Below, one piece after another: positions 4,525 to 28,740 of a DNA stretch of 64,000 nt. This stretch comes from Panopea generosa. Its lineage: Eukaryota > Mollusca > Bivalvia > Adapedonta > Hiatellidae. Below the pieces are notes generated by a model that was not told where the DNA came from, did not search any database, and saw only the letters and a program-made list of their open reading frames with translations. The DNA is taken from assembly GCA_029582155.1 (NCBI GenBank), contig CM055901.1:51775206-51839205 (forward strand). The letters run 5' to 3'. Each line of letters opens with the position of its first letter. The first letter of the stretch is position 1. A program made the position numbers and the translations under genes.

Positions 4525-6056
4525 TTTGACGTTGGAGGAAGAACCAAAAATGAATTTTAGTAAATACATCGTCCTTATTAAGTATATACAAAACATTATG
4601 ACTCCATTGTATGGCCTGTAATTAACTATGGGGCTGCAATATGGGGTTTAAATAATTTTACTGTATTTTGCTGTTTACTGTGATAACCGTGCTATGCGAT
4701 TCTTTTCTGGGGTTGGTAAATATTCGCCAAATGCAGCTATTTTCAGCGATATGGTTTGGCAACCTACTATTGTTCGTCATTGGAAAACTGTTTCTACATA
4801 CTGGTGTCGCCTATCCTCTTTGAATAAAATAAACTAAATAAACAGATTGCACTCTGGTCTTACTTAAAAGCTAATGTTTCTTTTAAAATTGGATTTATAT
4901 GTATGTTGTGTTGATGACGTCACAAAGAAAGTTTTTTTCGTACCAGTAATTGTTTTTCATCTATGAGTAGCAGTTGCGTTATTTACTCTTTTTTTCCTCA
5001 CATTGTAATCATATAATTTTTAATAACGGTTTAGACTATATGTCAAGATTAGCACAGGCCTCTCATTTTAACTATGTATAAAGTCGTTAACACTTGTTTT
5101 GTTAAACAGTTTATGTTTAATATTCTGCAGGGTTTTCAATAAACATCCAAATGTATAAATAGTACTGTGATCTTAACATGTGATACATTGGTTAAAAAAT
5201 GTTGTAACATGTTTTTAATATAGTCTCTTATAATTCTTTATCCAATGACATGGTTATTGGTTAAAGTAAAGAACGTTCTATGATGAGGCTTAAATAAAGA
5301 ATAAAATATATATAATGCAAGTGGACAGTATGTCTAGTAAAGGACATAACTTCGTACCTACCGCTGATTTAAAACTCATTTTGAAGTTGAAAACTATTGT
5401 AAAATTATATTACCTATAAAGCATAAGTCTGCTTTTAGTAAGTTTCATTGTGGTGTTGCCCAGTTAAGAACTGCGACTGGTAAATATGATAATCTAAGTT
5501 AGAAAATAGAAAAAGCTCCCTTTTGTAACACAGTGGAAGATGAAAGTCATGTAATTTTAGAATGTCATTTTATAATGATCTTAGAAATATTTTATTTGAA
5601 AAAAAGCGGCTGCAATAAATGATATTTTTTTTATAAATTGTTAAATGTTGACAAGACAGTATTTTTATTTTCCTACTTATTTTTTTATTCATATATGTGC
5701 CAAACACTGTTTAAATATATTACAAAGACCATTTTTTGTTTTAAATCTATAATGATACCTTTTTAACACTATTATCAGTTCTTGAGGGGATACTCGATAC
5801 TTTAAGATATCTTTTTATATTGCGCAATAGTGCTCTTTTTTCTTCTCATTGTTTTAGTAGTTTGTCTATCTAAACACGCCTCAAATAAATCGATTTGCAG
5901 CACTACACATTGTCTTATTTTGTGAATAGTAAATGGTCTTTTGCATTGTTTGATAGTCTCTTGTAATTCATATATTTGAATGATTATGGACATATATATT
6001 GTATGATATTAATGCTATTATTATAATTGCGTTGTACATAGATGAGACTGAAATGA
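4525..6056 (+). mobile_element. LINE copy A, 3' part of a non-LTR retrotransposon, decayed
   Basis: Matches the reverse complement of LINE copy B (27045-28740) over several blocks: around 4590-4880 (GGCCTGTAATTAACTATGGG, then GATAACCGTGCTATGCGATT, then CCTACTATTGTTCGTCATTG) and 5570-6056. In broken frames it encodes the post-RT C-terminal region: NYG-x-AIWG, then NRAMRFF, then HCGVAQLRTATGKY, then C-N-TVEDESHVILECHF followed by NDLRNILFEK, a layout typical of jockey/CR1-like LINE C-termini. Many stops and frame breaks; it is 5'-truncated. It lies opposite to the host gene inside its intron. The 3' end is placed where similarity to copy B stops, after GATGAGACTGAAAT. Confidence 0.75.
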
Positions 6057-7933: not shown

Positions 7934-10697
7934 ACCGCAGCGGTGGTCTTGTGGTAGAGTGTCCACCTCGCATACGGAAGGTCATGGGTTCGATCACCTG
8001 TCGGTTCATATCAAAGACGAAAAATTGTACTAGAAGCTTCCTCGTTTGGCTCTCAGAATTTAGAAGATAGTTCTAGGTATGGCCGATCCGGTGTCAGTAT
8101 AAAGTGACTGTGTAGGGTATCATACCATGTGTATGCGGCATGATACTCCCCAGTGTGGCAGCGCTCAGAATACCGTCTAGAGTAGACACAGTCGCGATAT
8201 GACTGGGTGGGGTATTATACCATGTGTATGCGGCATGATACTCCCCAGTGTGGCAGCACCCAGAATACCGTCTCAAGTAGACACAGTCACGATATGACTG
8301 GGTAGGGTATCATACCATGTGTATAAGGCATGATACTCCCCAGTGTGGCAGCGCTCAGAATACCGTCTAGAGTAGACACAGTCGCGATATGACTGGGTGG
8401 GGTATTATACCATGTGTATGCGGCATGATACTCCCCAGTGTGGCAGCACCCAGAATACCGTCTCAAGTAGACACAGTCACGATATGACTGGGTAGGGTAT
8501 CATACCATGTGTATAAAGCATGATACTCCCCAGTGGGGCAGCGCTCAGAATACCGTCTAGAGTATACACAGTCGAGATATGACTGGGTGGGGTATTATAC
8601 CACGTGTATGCGGCATGATACTCTCCAGTGTGGCAGCACCCAGAACACCGTCTCAAGTAGACACAGTCGCGATATGACTGGGTGGGGTATCATACCATGT
8701 GTATGCGGCATGATACTCCAGTGTGGCAGCGCTCAGAATACCGTCTAGAGTAGACACAGTCGCGATATGACTGGGTGGGGTATTATACCACGTGTATGCG
8801 GCATGATACTCCCCAGTGTGGCAGCGCTCAGAATACCGTCTCGAGTAGACACAGTCGCGATATGACTGGGTGGGGTATTATACCACGTGTATGCGGCATG
8901 ATACTCCCCAGTGTGGCAGCGCTCAGAATACCGTCTAGAGTAGACACAGTCGCGATATGACTGGGTGGGGTATTATACCACGTGTATGCGGCATGATACT
9001 CCAGTGTGGCAGCGCTCAGAATACCGTCTAGAGTAGACACAGTCGCGATATGACTGGTTGGGGTATTATACCACGTGTATGCGGCATGATACTCCAGTGT
9101 GGCAGCGCTCAGAATACCGTCTCGAGTAGACACAATTGCGATATGACTGGGTAGGGTATTATACCACGTGTATGCGGCATAATACTCCAGTGTGGCAGCG
9201 CTCAGAATACCGTCTCGAGTAGACACAATTGCGATATGACTGGGTGGGGTATTATACCACGTGTATGCGGCATGATACCCCAGTGTGGCAGCGCTCAGAA
9301 TACCGTCTCGAGTAGACTCAGTCGCAATATGACTGGGTGGGGTATTTCCATGTGCATACGGCATGATACTCCAGTGTGGCAGCGCTCAGAATACCGTCGA
9401 GAGTAGACACAGTCGCGATATGACTGGATGAGGTATTATATTATGTGTATGCGACATGATACTCCAGTGTGGTAGCACTCAGAATACCGTCTCGAGTAGA
9501 CACAGTCGCGATATGACTGGGTTGGGTATTTCCATTTGCATACGGCATGATACTCCAGTGTGGCAGCACTCAGAATACCGTCTCGAGTAGACACAGTCGC
9601 GATATGACTGGGTGGGGTATTTCCATGTGCATACGGCATGATACTCCCCAGTGTGGCAGCGCTCAGTATACCGTCTCAAGTAGACACAGTCGCAATATGA
9701 CTGGGTGGGGTATTATGCCATGCGCATACGGCATGATACTCCCCAGTGTGGCAGCGCTCAGAATACCGTCTCTAGTAGACACAGTCGCGATATGACTGGG
9801 TGGGGTATTATACCATGTGCATACGGCATAATACTCTCCAGTGTGGCAGCGCTCAGAATACCGTCTAGAATAGACACAGTCGCGATATGACTGAGTGGGG
9901 TATTACCATGTGCATGCGGCATGATACTCCCCAGTGTGGCAGCGCTCAGAATACCGTCTCGAATAGACACAGTCGCGATATGACTGGTTGGGGGTATTAT
10001 ACCATGTGCATGCGGCATGATACTCCCCAGTGTGGCAGCGCTCAGAATACCGTCTCGAATAGACACAGTCGCGATATGACTGGGTGGGGTATTATACCAT
10101 GTGCATGCGGCATGATACTCCCCAGTGTGGCAGCGCTCAGAATACCGTCTCGAATAGACACAGTCGCGATATGACTGGGTGGGGTATCATACCATGTGCA
10201 TGCGGCATGATACTCCCCAGTGTGGCAGCGCTCAGAATACCGTCTCGAGTAGATACAGTCGCGATATGACTGGGTGGGGTATTTATACCATGTGCATGCG
10301 GCATGATACTCCCCAGTGTGGCAGCGCTCAGAAAACCGTCTAGAGTAGACACAGTCGCAATATGACTGGGTGGGGTATTATACCATGTGTATGCGGCATG
10401 ATACTCCCCAGTGTGGCAGCACCCAGAATACCGTTTCGAATAGACACAGTCGCGATATGACTGGGTGGGGTATTATACCATGTGTATGCGGCATGATACT
10501 CCAGTGTGGCAGCACTCAGAATACCGTCTAGAGTAGACATAGTCGCGATATGGCTGGGTGGGGTATTATACCATGTGCATGCGGCATGATACTCCAGTGT
10601 GGCAGCGCTCAGAACACTGTCTCAAGTAGACACAGTCGCGATATAACTGAAAAATTGTTGAAAGAGACGCAAAACACCATCCAACAACAACAACAAC
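7934..10697 (+). mobile_element. SINE-A copy whose body has become a satellite array
   Basis: The tRNA-like head (A box region GTGGTCTTGTGGTAGAGTG, B box GGGTTCGATCACC) begins at about 7934. The normal linker with GGTGTCAGTATAAAGTGACTG follows up to 8104. The element then enters 27 tandem copies of its own body (8105-10643) and leaves through the normal tail ATTGTTGAAAGAGACGCAAA and a CAA-rich end near 10697. In an unexpanded copy (45718-46028) the same body occurs once. So this is one SINE of about 310 bp inflated to about 2.76 kb. The tail resembles molluscan RUDI/V-type SINEs as I remember them; the exact family is not verified. Confidence 0.9.
8105..10643. repeat. Tandem array of SINE-A body, 93-95 bp unit, 27 copies
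   Basis: The unit runs from one TGACTG to the next. Spacing is 95 bp where the unit reads ACTCCCCAGTG and 93 bp where it reads ACTCCAGTG. Counting the CAGCGCTCAGAA/CAGCACCCAGAA block gives 27 units over 2.54 kb, mean 94 bp. The first six units form three near-identical 190-bp dimers. Each unit contains an inverted pair GTATCATACC...GGCATGATAC. Open frames across it in both directions (for example 8828-9364) are by-products of the periodicity. Confidence 0.95.
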
Positions 10698-22654: not shown

Positions 22655-24340
22655 ATAATAAAACGTTCCTATTTATAATAGCATATAAAATCTATCTATG
22701 ATTTCTTATACTAACATATACGAATGTTTAAATCATTTATTGTATCTTATAATAAAATATAGAAATGCTTACTGTTTATAATATCATATTCTAACATATA
22801 CTAATGCATACCATTTACAATATAACATACTGAAACATACAAGCGTTAATACTTTATTGTATAATAATAAAACATCCTAATGTTATCTATTTATACAATC
22901 ACATTGTAACATTATATGGTATGACACCCTGCAACAGAAGCGCTGAAAACTTAACATATAACAAAACAAACCTATACTGTGGTTAAACAGTTTACAATAT
23001 AGAATGTCGAATATTTATTACTATATAATTATAATATAACATATCCTATTTTTATATTCAAAAGCTTCTATAGATGAATACAAATATAAAAAAACACGAA
23101 TTAAAATTTATTTATTAAAATATTAAGATACAATAAAACTTTCAGAATCCATCTAACATAAAACAACAGTGTAAGAAACGCGCTTTGCACGTAATTAAAT
23201 AATACAGTACCTGCCATAAAACTATATAAAATGTACAGTAACCGATCCTCCAATAAGTCAAATATAAACCACACGATATAAAGGTTAATACTTTTAAGTG
23301 TTAAATCATTCAGAACACAATTAAAATGCCCTTATGTTTGTAGATCTATATATATACACTCCGGTAAATAAATCACACATAGATAAATCCGTGCACGTCC
23401 TGATACAAGTTCACATATACCACTACCGCGTTGGCAGTATTTGGAGGTATTTATGGGGTTAAATCTGTATCAATATGCTCTAATTGGGTAATAGATACAC
23501 TTTTAAGTAACCGATATGTGTAGCCTACCGGCCGATTATCAATACAAGTCAGACACAATACACCAAATACGGACATTTTAAGAACGGAGCAAATATTTTA
23601 TTTGTCTCTATACATATAGTACATCGTCATGTATGAATAAAACAAATATACAAACAGATTATTAATTATAGTCACATGAAAGATAATAATAATATATATT
23701 TATTCTTCTTTTCCCTTTTTTCTCTTTTTTTTTGTCTGCCAAGCTCTACTTTGTTATCACCATTTAATACAGCAAAGCATTCAATATCCCTTTAAATCAC
23801 AGTGTGTCCGGTGTCTCAAATAGTGATATAATACGGCAGGTAAAAAGTGAACACTCGCATAAAGATACTATCATACTTCCTCATGCATTCCCACGCATGT
23901 CCCCATATAACACAAAGTGTGTATATTAATCCCGTGTATATGATATGATAAATAAGCAGTGATATCTGATTTATGTACACAGTACATTTATGTGGATTAT
24001 GTAATGTGAAAGTTTTTACCTACATTCTGTTGTATATATCGATCACTGACATACTTTATTAGAAATCTATAGTATAAATATACGTCACGTGTATACGCTC
24101 TGTTACGAGTTATAAGCAGTTGTACTTTTGGTAATATTTAAGAGAGCATGATATCTTAAAAAAGGGGAGATCTGACGTAATTTTGGATCAAACACTACAA
24201 TAGAACAAATGAACCTCTCTTTGGGCTCCATATTGTTTGACTGATTAGGCCTATATGTTAGTGATTAAAAATGGTATTTTAGCAGTAGAAGATGAAATAC
24301 GATTGTCTTAGCAGCAGAAGATGAAAAATGAATTGAGTGC
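22655..24340. other. AT-rich stretch, degenerate array edge then nothing recognised
   Basis: To about 22900 there are decayed 39-bp units; beyond that unique AT-rich sequence without supported features. Confidence 0.5.
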
Positions 24341-24344
24341 AAAC

Positions 24345-26290
24345 TTTATGGGCGATTTGATGTGAAACAGGGGACGGGAGGGGTTAATGTCACACTTACA
24401 TTATTTTCTGTCTTCGTGGATGACACTGTGACAAAGGGTAATGACCTTGGTATCCATTTCGGCAACTCCAAAGTGTCGATATCGCACATATTGAGCAACA
24501 TTTATAGACAATGCTTGATATTTTACACAACCTTGGTATCCATTTCGGCAACTCCAAAGTGTCGATATCGCACATATTGAGCAACATTTATAGACAATGC
24601 TTGATATTTTACACAACCTTGGTATCCATTTCGGCAACTCCAAAGTGTCGATATCGCACATACTGAGCAACATTATAGACAATGCTTAATATTTTACACA
24701 ACCTTGGTATCCATTTCGGCAACTCCAAAGTGTCGATATCGCACATATTGAGCAACATTTATAGACAATGCTTGATATTTTACACAACCTTGGTATCCAT
24801 TTCGGCAACTCCAAAAGTGCCGATATGGCACATATTGAGCAACATTTATAGACAATGCTTGATATTTTACACAACCTTGGTATCCATTTCGGCAACTCCA
24901 AAGTGTCGATATCGCACATATTGAGCAACATTTATAGACAATGCTTGATATTTTACACAACCTTGGTATCCATTTCGGCAACTCCAAAGTGTCGATATCG
25001 CACATATTGAGCAACATTTATAGACAATGCTTGATATTTTACACAACCTTGGTATCCATTTCGGCAACTCCAAAGTGTCGATATCGCACATATTGAGCAA
25101 CATTTATAGATAATGCTTGATATTTTACACAACCTTGGTATCCATTTCGGCAACTCCAAAGTGTCGATATCGCACATATTGAGCAACATTTATAGACAAT
25201 GCTTGATATTTTACACAACCTTGGTATCCATTTCGGCAACTCCAAAGTGTCGATATCGCACATATTGAGCAACATTTATAGACAATGCTTGATATTTTAC
25301 ACAACCTTGGTATCCATTTCGGCAACTCCAAAAGTGCCGATATCGCACATATTGAGCAACATTTATAGACAATGCTTGATATTTTACACAACCTTGGTAT
25401 CCATTTCGGCAACTCCAAAGTGTCGATATCGCACATATTGAGCAACATTTATAGACAATGCTTGATATTTTACACAACCTTGGTATCCATTTCGGCAACT
25501 CCAAAAGTGCCGATATCGCACATATTGAGCAACATTAATAGACAATGCTTGATATTTTACACAACCTTGGTATCCATTTCGGCAACTCCAAAGTGCCGAT
25601 ATCGCACATATTGAGCAACATTTATAGACAATGCTTGATATTTTACACAACCTTGGTATCCATTTCGGCAACTCCAAAGTGCCGATATCGCACATATTGA
25701 GCAACATTTATAGACAATGCTTGATATTTTACACAACCTTGGTATCCATTTCGGCAACTCCAAAGTGCCGATATCGCACATATTGAGCAACATTTATAGA
25801 CAATGCTTGATATTTTACACAACTGCTGCAAGATATAGAGTTCTAATTAACACGGACAAATTACACTTCGTGCATTTCCGGAAAAATCGAACAGCCAAGA
25901 CAGAAAATATTGTTTACCATCAGTTATAGTATTCTTAACATTGTTGAGAGAGGAACAGGTACTTAGTGAGAATTTTCACTTGATTGGTCGTTTCTCCTAC
26001 CTCTTTGAAGTTTTAGCAAAATTAAGAATGGATCAAAATGATTTCAAACAAACTCACAATTTTAAAGACATTGGATTCAAATAATATATTTCATTCAGGC
26101 CTCATTCCAATATTAGACCGTTGTTCTGCCGTATAAGGTTTCATACAGCGTCAGACAATACACAACATTCAACATCGTGCTTTATGATACTTCTTGGCAT
26201 TCGGACTTGGAGATAAGGCTGTCGTGTAACCATAGCCATGGCGTCTCAATGCCTTGTTAGTTGACCATATTAGCTGCTGAGGTTTTAGTA
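24345..26290 (+). mobile_element. LINE copy C with an internal satellite, decayed
   Basis: Left flank of the array (24345-24444) reads GRFDVKQGTGGV then LTLFSVFVDDTVTKGNDLG, the RT stretch that normally precedes the YADD motif. The right flank (25823-25920) reads RYRVLINTDK then HFVHFRKNRTAKTE, the segment that normally follows. Later 26170-26250 gives IQHRAL then YFLAFGLG, like the NRAxRYFLG block near LINE C-termini. Between the flanks one 86-bp part of the RT is repeated 16 times. Frame breaks and stops are frequent. It is 5'-truncated, and of a type related to but distinct from copies A and B. Confidence 0.75.
24445..25822. repeat. Tandem array of an RT-derived 86-bp unit, 16 copies
   Basis: The unit starts CCTTGGTATCCATTTCGGC and ends GCTTGATATTTTACACAA; CCTTGG recurs every 86-87 bases (24445 to about 25738). 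Three units have an extra A (CCAAAAGTGCCG, 87 bp). One frame reads LGIHFGNSKVSIS, another reads EQHL-x-TMLDILHN: these are the RT pieces on either side of YADD, which is absent. Copies are nearly identical, so the expansion is recent. Long frames on both strands are by-products. Confidence 0.95.
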
Positions 26291-27044: not shown

Positions 27045-28740
27045 TCAGTCTCATCTATGTACAACGCAATAATAATAACATTAATAGCATACACAATATG
27101 TACATAGCCATTCAAATATATGAATTACAGGAGACTATTACACAATGCAAAAGAAAAAAAAGAGCACTATTGCACAATATAAAAATATCTTAAAATATCG
27201 AGTATCAGATCAGAAAAAAATGATTTGCAGCGTGCACATAGGAGTTGATAAAAAGGTAACATTTTAGATATAAAACAAACAAATGCATTATTTACAAAGG
27301 TAAAATGCACGTCTTTGTAATATATTATAATAGGTTTTGGCACAATCACGAATCAAAGATGAGCGGGAAAATAAGAATGCCGTCTTATCAACACTTGACA
27401 CATTATAAAAATTAGCATTAATTGCAGCTGCTTTTTCAAATAAAATATTTCTTAGATCATTATAAAGATATACACAATATACATCCAATTTTTACAAGAA
27501 ACGTTAGCTTTAAAGTAAGACCAGAGAGCAATTCGTTTATTGATTCTACACGCACTTTCATTCATAGAGGAAAGGCGATTCCAGTATGTTGAAATAGTTT
27601 TCCATTGACGAACAATAGTAGGCTGCCGAACTATTTCACCAACACTAGCTGAATTTGGCGTCTATTAAAAGAATCGCATGGCACGGTTATGAACAGCATC
27701 AATACATGAAAATAATTAACGACCCCATATTGTAACCCCATAATTAATTACAGGTCATACAATGGAGTCATAAAGTTTTGTATATACGTTATTAGGAACT
27801 CCTCCAATTATTTTGCATTTGGCAATTAAAATACCAAGGGCACGACTTCAACCCTGTGCGTACTATACCAAGATAAGTGTATTTACCAACCATGTGTAAG
27901 ATTTCATTACCACACTGGAATACACAATCAGTTTTAGGAGTTGAATTTGGTCGGAAATGTATAACATTACTCTTGTTACTCTTCATAAACATATTTGTGG
28001 AGCGCGTGGTCCAGTGGTAGAACACCGAACCCATGATCGGAGGGTCGTTGGTTCGATCCTCCGCCACGGCTATGTGTGGTGTCCTTGAGCAAGACACTTG
28101 TCCGAATTTGCTTAGTACTGGTTCTAACCGGGAATACTTCGAGCGTGAGTTGTAATAACTTGTGCCACAATCGAATTAAATAAATAAGACATATCATTTA
28201 AATCACACCAATCAGATAGGGCAGATAATATTCTCTGTAAATCAGTTTTATTTTCGGCCAACAGTACGATGTCATCGGCATACATTAAGATATAAATGTA
28301 TTCATTATTAAACGATATTCTAAAATTTAGACTTTTCAGAACAACAAAGGAGATAAGATACAACCTTGTCTTAGCACACAATGTACACAAAACCACTCAG
28401 TATAAGGTTATTCACTCTAACATATGACGAAACAGAGACGTATGATGACTTTAAAGCAAGAAGCATTTTACAACAAATACCATTATCAAAAAATCTTTTC
28501 AAAAACAATATCCCTATGTTTATAGTCACAAGCTTTTCGAAAGTCTATGAAAGCACAATATGTAGACTTTTCCTCGTGTCAATAATACTTGTAAGCACCG
28601 CGTTTGACCCCCAGTACAAAGATGTTTTAGTAATATGGTTACTAATAACAATGACAAGATGAGCCTGCTTGCCAGCAAATGGAATACCGTCCACCAGTTC
28701 ACTATTACAAGCAAGTAAATATGACGATATTCATTTCCAA
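27045..28740 (-). mobile_element. LINE copy B, RT and C-terminal part, decayed, split by a SINE
   Basis: On the minus strand the RT motifs appear in order: YCAFIDFRKACD (28566-28525), LRQGCILSPLLF (about 28378-28342), LMYADDIVLLAENKTDLQRI (about 28290-28225) with DWCDLND after it, then beyond the SINE VIHFRPNSTPKTD and YTYLGI (down to about 27855), VINYG (about 27750), NRAMRFF (about 27685). The part near 27470 lacks about 670 bp that LINE copy A has (4896-5566). The 3' end matches copy A to about 27045. Stops and frame breaks are present, so it is inactive. Confidence 0.85.
27997..28188 (+). mobile_element. SINE-C inserted in LINE copy B
   Basis: tRNA-like head GGAGCGCGTGGTCCAGTGG with B box TTGGTTCGATCC, then TGGTGTCCTTGAGCAAGAC, TTAGTACTGGTTCTAAC, and 3' end AATCGAATTAAATAAATAAG. 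ACATAT is duplicated on both sides (27989-27994 and 28189-28194), and the LINE reading resumes across it, so the SINE is younger than the LINE. Confidence 0.9.

Follow-up and report, generated by a model that had tools for sequence, protein, structure and literature searches.

A tandem array bounded on both sides by reverse transcriptase (RT)-coding LINE sequence raises the question of where its unit came from and whether it multiplied where it now lies. The beginnings of satellites are usually lost, with the founding sequence gone or the array moved. The array examined here lies in a 64,000-nucleotide stretch of the Panopea generosa genome (the window; C8:51775206-51839205 in a 39-contig genome of 1.47 Gb). 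A first-pass annotation had proposed that a LINE copy lost part of its RT palm segment and that the remainder expanded. Our comparisons, all at the level of sequence, favor a single-locus, minisatellite-like array that arose by in situ growth within an old, dead copy of a LINE, likely functionless, by a process that also struck sister copies. We put the probability of this reading at about 0.87.

A single-locus array within a LINE copy

The array and the LINE sequence around it comprise the following features, with LINE coordinates given on the related copy L054.

24345..24445, + strand: left LINE flank, a decayed RT block (FDVKQG...LFSVFVDD...TKGND) with 50-52% amino acid identity over 42 aa in its best local matches to the LINE family
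24446..25823, + strand: tandem array of 16 units of 85-87 bp, each corresponding to L054 1378-1491 minus 28 bp net
25824..25926, + strand: right LINE flank, an RT block (RYRVLINTDK...HFRKNRTAKT) that matches LINE copies at 63% identity over 27 aa
25927..26199, + strand: remaining part of this decayed copy, interrupted by stops and frame changes; tblastn matches to the LINE protein extend as far as 26196-26199

Applied to the window, TRF delimits the array at 24444-25823, with 16.0 copies of 86 bp and 98% matches. Unit starts run from 24446 to 25738 at spacings of 85-87 bp; most units are 86 bp long, with one of 85 bp and three of 87 bp among the 16. Eight of the 16 are identical, and there are seven distinct types. 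The mean pairwise difference among the 16 is 1.57 of 86 bases (1.8%), with a maximum of 6, and the units at the array's edges show no decay, one being identical to the commonest unit and the other having a single difference from it. Six units (positions 5, 11, and 13-16) carry a T-to-C change, and an extra A is present in units 5, 11, and 13, all of which belong to those six. This irregular order of unit types would fit spread by unequal exchange or conversion. It also bears on whether the assembler multiplied the copies. Tandem arrays are error-prone in assemblies, and this one is known from the assembly alone; nonetheless, seven unit types in irregular order within a mere 1.4 kb make such an artefact exceedingly improbable.

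A whole-genome search with a 30-base unit pattern, allowing up to three mismatches, returned 16 matches, every one within the window array, and the reversed control pattern returned none genome-wide. Because the unit pattern is confined to this array, we regard it as a single-locus array rather than a dispersed satellite. A classical satellite is an abundant family at many loci or in long arrays, whereas this array occupies one locus of 1.38 kb; it is minisatellite-like and at most a nascent satellite. It does qualify as a tandem repeat derived from a transposable element (TE), having a unit homologous to an element in near-identical head-to-tail copies. We notice nothing that would suggest a function, and the array most likely has none.

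Homology of the unit and its parent family

The best genomic matches of the 34 aa immediately 3′ of the array reach 63% identity over 27 aa, and translation of the matching loci yields a colinear RT segment. Its blocks are, in order, counterparts of the left flank and the unit's first half, a YADD stretch that the unit lacks, and counterparts of the unit's second half and the right flank. The peptides quoted in the first-pass annotation were recovered upstream, in the unit (in two frames), and downstream. Relatives elsewhere in this genome cover the interval between the two RT blocks and include the YADD catalytic motif. Intact relatives carry that motif, while no YADD can be read in the window units, in line with its proposed loss. 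The right-flank alignment picks up at about L054 1492, the LINE position at which the last unit leaves off, and a decayed RT copy can be traced from about 24345 to 26199 with the array in register within it. This copy is dead, since its LINE homology to 26199 carries stops and frame changes. The register between the expected RT blocks, together with the lack of the unit pattern elsewhere, bears out the earlier proposal of expansion in place to 16 near-identical copies.

At the DNA level, the left flank, one unit, and the right flank together scored 202 against the LINE, compared with a mean of 117 and a maximum of 141 for 500 shuffles; along with the colinear relatives, this upholds derivation from the RT palm segment. 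Each flank alone was likewise distinctive, with 0 of 500 shuffles reaching the observed DNA score for the left (query 24330-24445) or the right. The unit alone is weaker as DNA: 4 of 500 shuffles reached its score against the expected LINE interval, 31 of 500 did so when a unit pair was scored on the entire LINE stretch, and under strict gap costs only 36 unit bases align, at 63.9% identity. Moreover, Pfam assigned no family to either of two window pieces searched alone. Such results would fit a chance resemblance, or a foreign repeat inserted between two LINE blocks. We nevertheless judge both very improbable, given that 0 of 5,000 shuffles of the commonest unit reached its peptide-level score (2 of 2,000 for the last unit), that the right flank resumes in LINE coordinates where the unit stops, and that the rest of the genome lacks the unit pattern.

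The parent family encodes a reverse transcriptase domain (RVT_1) in all three reading frames scanned, from two loci (E = 1.3e-35, 4.9e-20, and 1.1e-11). Among solved chains, an R2 retrotransposon protein matches best (5e-20), followed by LINE-1 ORF2 chains at ~3e-18 to 7e-18, and the matches to retron and group II RTs are much poorer; by these matches, the parent RT is closest to LINE-type enzymes. No endonuclease family was detected in the three parent frames, whose stretches stop short of the element's start. At E ≤ 0.001, the upstream 53 aa matched only the window itself (33 candidates scored). No relative exceeded ~49% protein identity among 150 scored of 547 candidates, and the parental sequence is therefore not known base for base. 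Five LINE fragments at C7:58515484-59100318 have reading frames of equal length with two stops in common, are 38-39% identical to the query, and lie ~88-176 kb apart, perhaps reflecting a long-period duplication. Separately, 5 of the 40 scored copies of the LINE 3′ part fall on one contig (C21:1164430-3478267).

A deletion common to all units

An 86-bp unit stands for a LINE interval of 114 bp, so that 28 bp net, or 9 1/3 codons, are gone and the frame is changed; this shift is why the two halves of the unit read in different frames. The first-pass annotation had estimated a loss of about 14 codons, correct as to the loss and too large as to its size, which is net ~9 codons. It had also posited a single YADD-spanning deletion shared by the units. 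With unit lengths of 85-87 bp throughout, the net loss is indeed common to all 16, and it therefore either preceded growth or spread along with it. The breakpoints are ambiguous, since the alignment splits the loss into several gaps.

Identity to L054 is 72-73% for each flank and for the unit under lax gap costs, and 64-73% under stricter ones, which align the unit over only 36 bases. Units differ from one another by 1.8%, compared with ~27-36% between the LINE and the unit plus flanks, and the present copies are therefore far more recent than the LINE copy that holds them. That copy drifted first, with the present units spreading much later or being homogenized lately. Because arrays homogenize, the 1.8% obtained by the previously suggested approach of dating from unit divergence refers to the last spread (the units' last common ancestor), not to the array's birth.

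We infer the following course of events. A dead LINE copy would have lost 28 bp net, after which faulty end joining or a template switch during repair or replication may have doubled the 86-bp segment. Once two copies were present, unequal exchange or replication slippage could have raised their number to 16 and kept the units alike. Examined by eye, the unit-to-unit junction shares two bases (AC) with both parental edges, a match often expected by chance, and junction microhomology in general (~1-3 bases), also gauged by eye, carries little weight.

Other in-place duplications in the same LINE family

Searches with an RT query revealed contiguous duplications at 4 of 40 scored loci from 113 candidates (C9, two places on C1, and C17). 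The window array lies outside these 40 loci, and a rearranged copy with one repeated piece at C4:25.72 Mb was left out of the count. One LINE copy, at C9:65.62 Mb (L086, C9:65621000-65630000), contains two arrays.

L086 1934-6007: 85 bp x 48 (47.9 copies; L054 1453-1538)
L086 6060-6998: 34 bp x 28 (27.9 copies; L054 1588-1622), downstream of the first

LINE sequence precedes, separates, and follows both arrays, and 14 LINE bases are missing at the left edge. The 48 units of the 85-bp array differ by 3.7% on average and include 25 distinct sequences. A 17-bp step repeated 2.2 times lies directly before the arrays. Kinship between the 86-bp and 85-bp units was considered and rejected: they cover different LINE segments (L054 1378-1491 versus 1453-1538) and are counted as separate events. 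One pattern search gave 17 matches, 16 of them in the C9 array; the remaining match, at C4:1.46 Mb, reads as a GGT-type simple repeat and was left uncounted.

At C1:25.56 Mb (L087, C1:25557500-25562500), a LINE copy 70% identical to L054 contains 3.0 copies of a 497-bp segment that are 95-96% alike. A locus ~1 Mb away (C1:26.61 Mb; C1:26608723-26610383) has the same match pattern and is probably a duplicate of it. At C17:9.70 Mb (L053, C17:9697155-9700235; 1595-1834), a 118-bp segment occurs twice, with halves 95% alike that group as sisters in a small tree (support, 0.859). This two-copy duplication is a possible first stage of an array.

These loci also inform whether the array could have been born during retrotransposition, with the LINE RT switching template repeatedly and the segment inserted already tandem. 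The segment is LINE coding sequence, and the 4.9% difference between the C17 halves is close to that among family members, such that this duplication could date from not long after the insertion. Conversely, in the small tree the two C17 halves split only after a private stem common to both, the C1 copies differ by 4-5% against 30% from the family, and the window units differ by 1.8% against ~27-36% for their copy and the family, although late homogenization could mimic the latter two contrasts. On balance, tandem insertion is improbable, and growth within a dead copy is preferred.

Array position and background density

The tandem events (the window, C9 twice, C1, and C17) all fall within L054 1361-1884, and no contiguous duplication was found with a 5′ query (0 of 40 scored loci; 87 candidates) or a 3′ query (0 of 40; 586 candidates). 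Using the 5′ query, a ~126-base piece was found repeated 0.9 kb apart at C13:19.27 Mb; a second array suspected there from a truncated match was dismissed, as the 2.5 kb examined held no tandem repeat. It is tempting to view the part of this LINE that codes for the region from palm to thumb as a preferred birthplace of tandem arrays in the family. We consider this unlikely: the comparison of 4 of 40 with 0 of 40 and 0 of 40 is post hoc, its loci are not independent, and old copies are visible mostly via RT. That the RT palm is merely the still-recognizable part of old LINEs is a simpler explanation, since the window is full of arrays.

Twelve tandem arrays (period of at least 15, at least three copies) cover 19,905 of the window's 64,000 bases. 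By comparison, 30 RVT_1 loci (112,692 bases) contain one array, and 19 right-flank-peptide loci other than the window (58,542 bases) contain five, two being the C9 arrays. Array density is thus far higher in the window than in the examined LINE loci, which are a poor, non-random substitute for a background rate. The window also holds remnants of other LINE-like RT elements at 4573-4875 and 5341-5743 (+ strand) and 27309-28572 (- strand), closest to another group of loci (L029-L035).

Among the other arrays is a 95-bp repeat at 8105-10649, taken to be the putative SINE case that the first-pass annotation paired with the LINE array as two independent satellite births in one window. The 95-bp family is tandem at C10, C14, C1, C18, and C4, among others, with at least 271 matches in 39 scored of 4,208 candidates. 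Birth in the window is therefore not demonstrated for this array, and the claim of two births is not supported.

Comparison with known systems

Chicken HinfI, Phodopus PROsat, and harbour seal Pvc 20 are abundant satellites. In the portions of a review that concern them, they are related to LINE ORF2 (HinfI to CR1, including the 3′ UTR; PROsat and Pvc 20 to L1), and any part of an element is said to be a potential satellite source (PMC9659126). Like them, the window array has a tandem unit from LINE ORF2 coding sequence; they are described there (PMC9659126) as named satellite DNAs, whereas the window array is one 1.4-kb locus with its donor LINE still flanking both sides. The common cetacean satellite is also a LINE-derived tandem repeat, but the same portions trace it to the 3′-terminal part of L1 rather than to the RT palm (PMC9659126).

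Relevant sections of a 2025 review place LINE untranslated regions among satellite sources and describe short arrays expanding inside elements (PMC12628747). Arrays carried inside TEs resemble ours as satellite-like repeats growing within an element; those in the sections cited (PMC12628747) are part of the element, whereas the window array arose in one dead copy. It was absent from 18 other right-flank-peptide family loci and from the other scored RT-query loci. A retrotransposon origin is likewise held in common with plant satellites from retrotransposon-derived tandem repeats, in what is, from the part of the report considered, a plant study based on nanopore reads, unlike ours (PMC7004042). 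An oyster study counts TE-similar satellites, with 4, 0, and 0 related to retrotransposons in three rows of its table (PMC11136912). Judging by titles and abstract openings in the open-licence literature, no staged series of in-place LINE RT palm arrays was found.

LINE-ORF2-derived satellites are thus already published, and the window array adds another; what is new is the set of in-place duplications within the same LINE family. This one family offers 2, 3, 16, 28, and 48 copies, with sister copies showing the unamplified state. How large the first duplication was, what its junction looks like, and how two copies became many can therefore be measured directly. Compared with satellites whose beginnings are gone, the birth of a repeat array can here be traced in stages across sister LINE copies with differing copy numbers.
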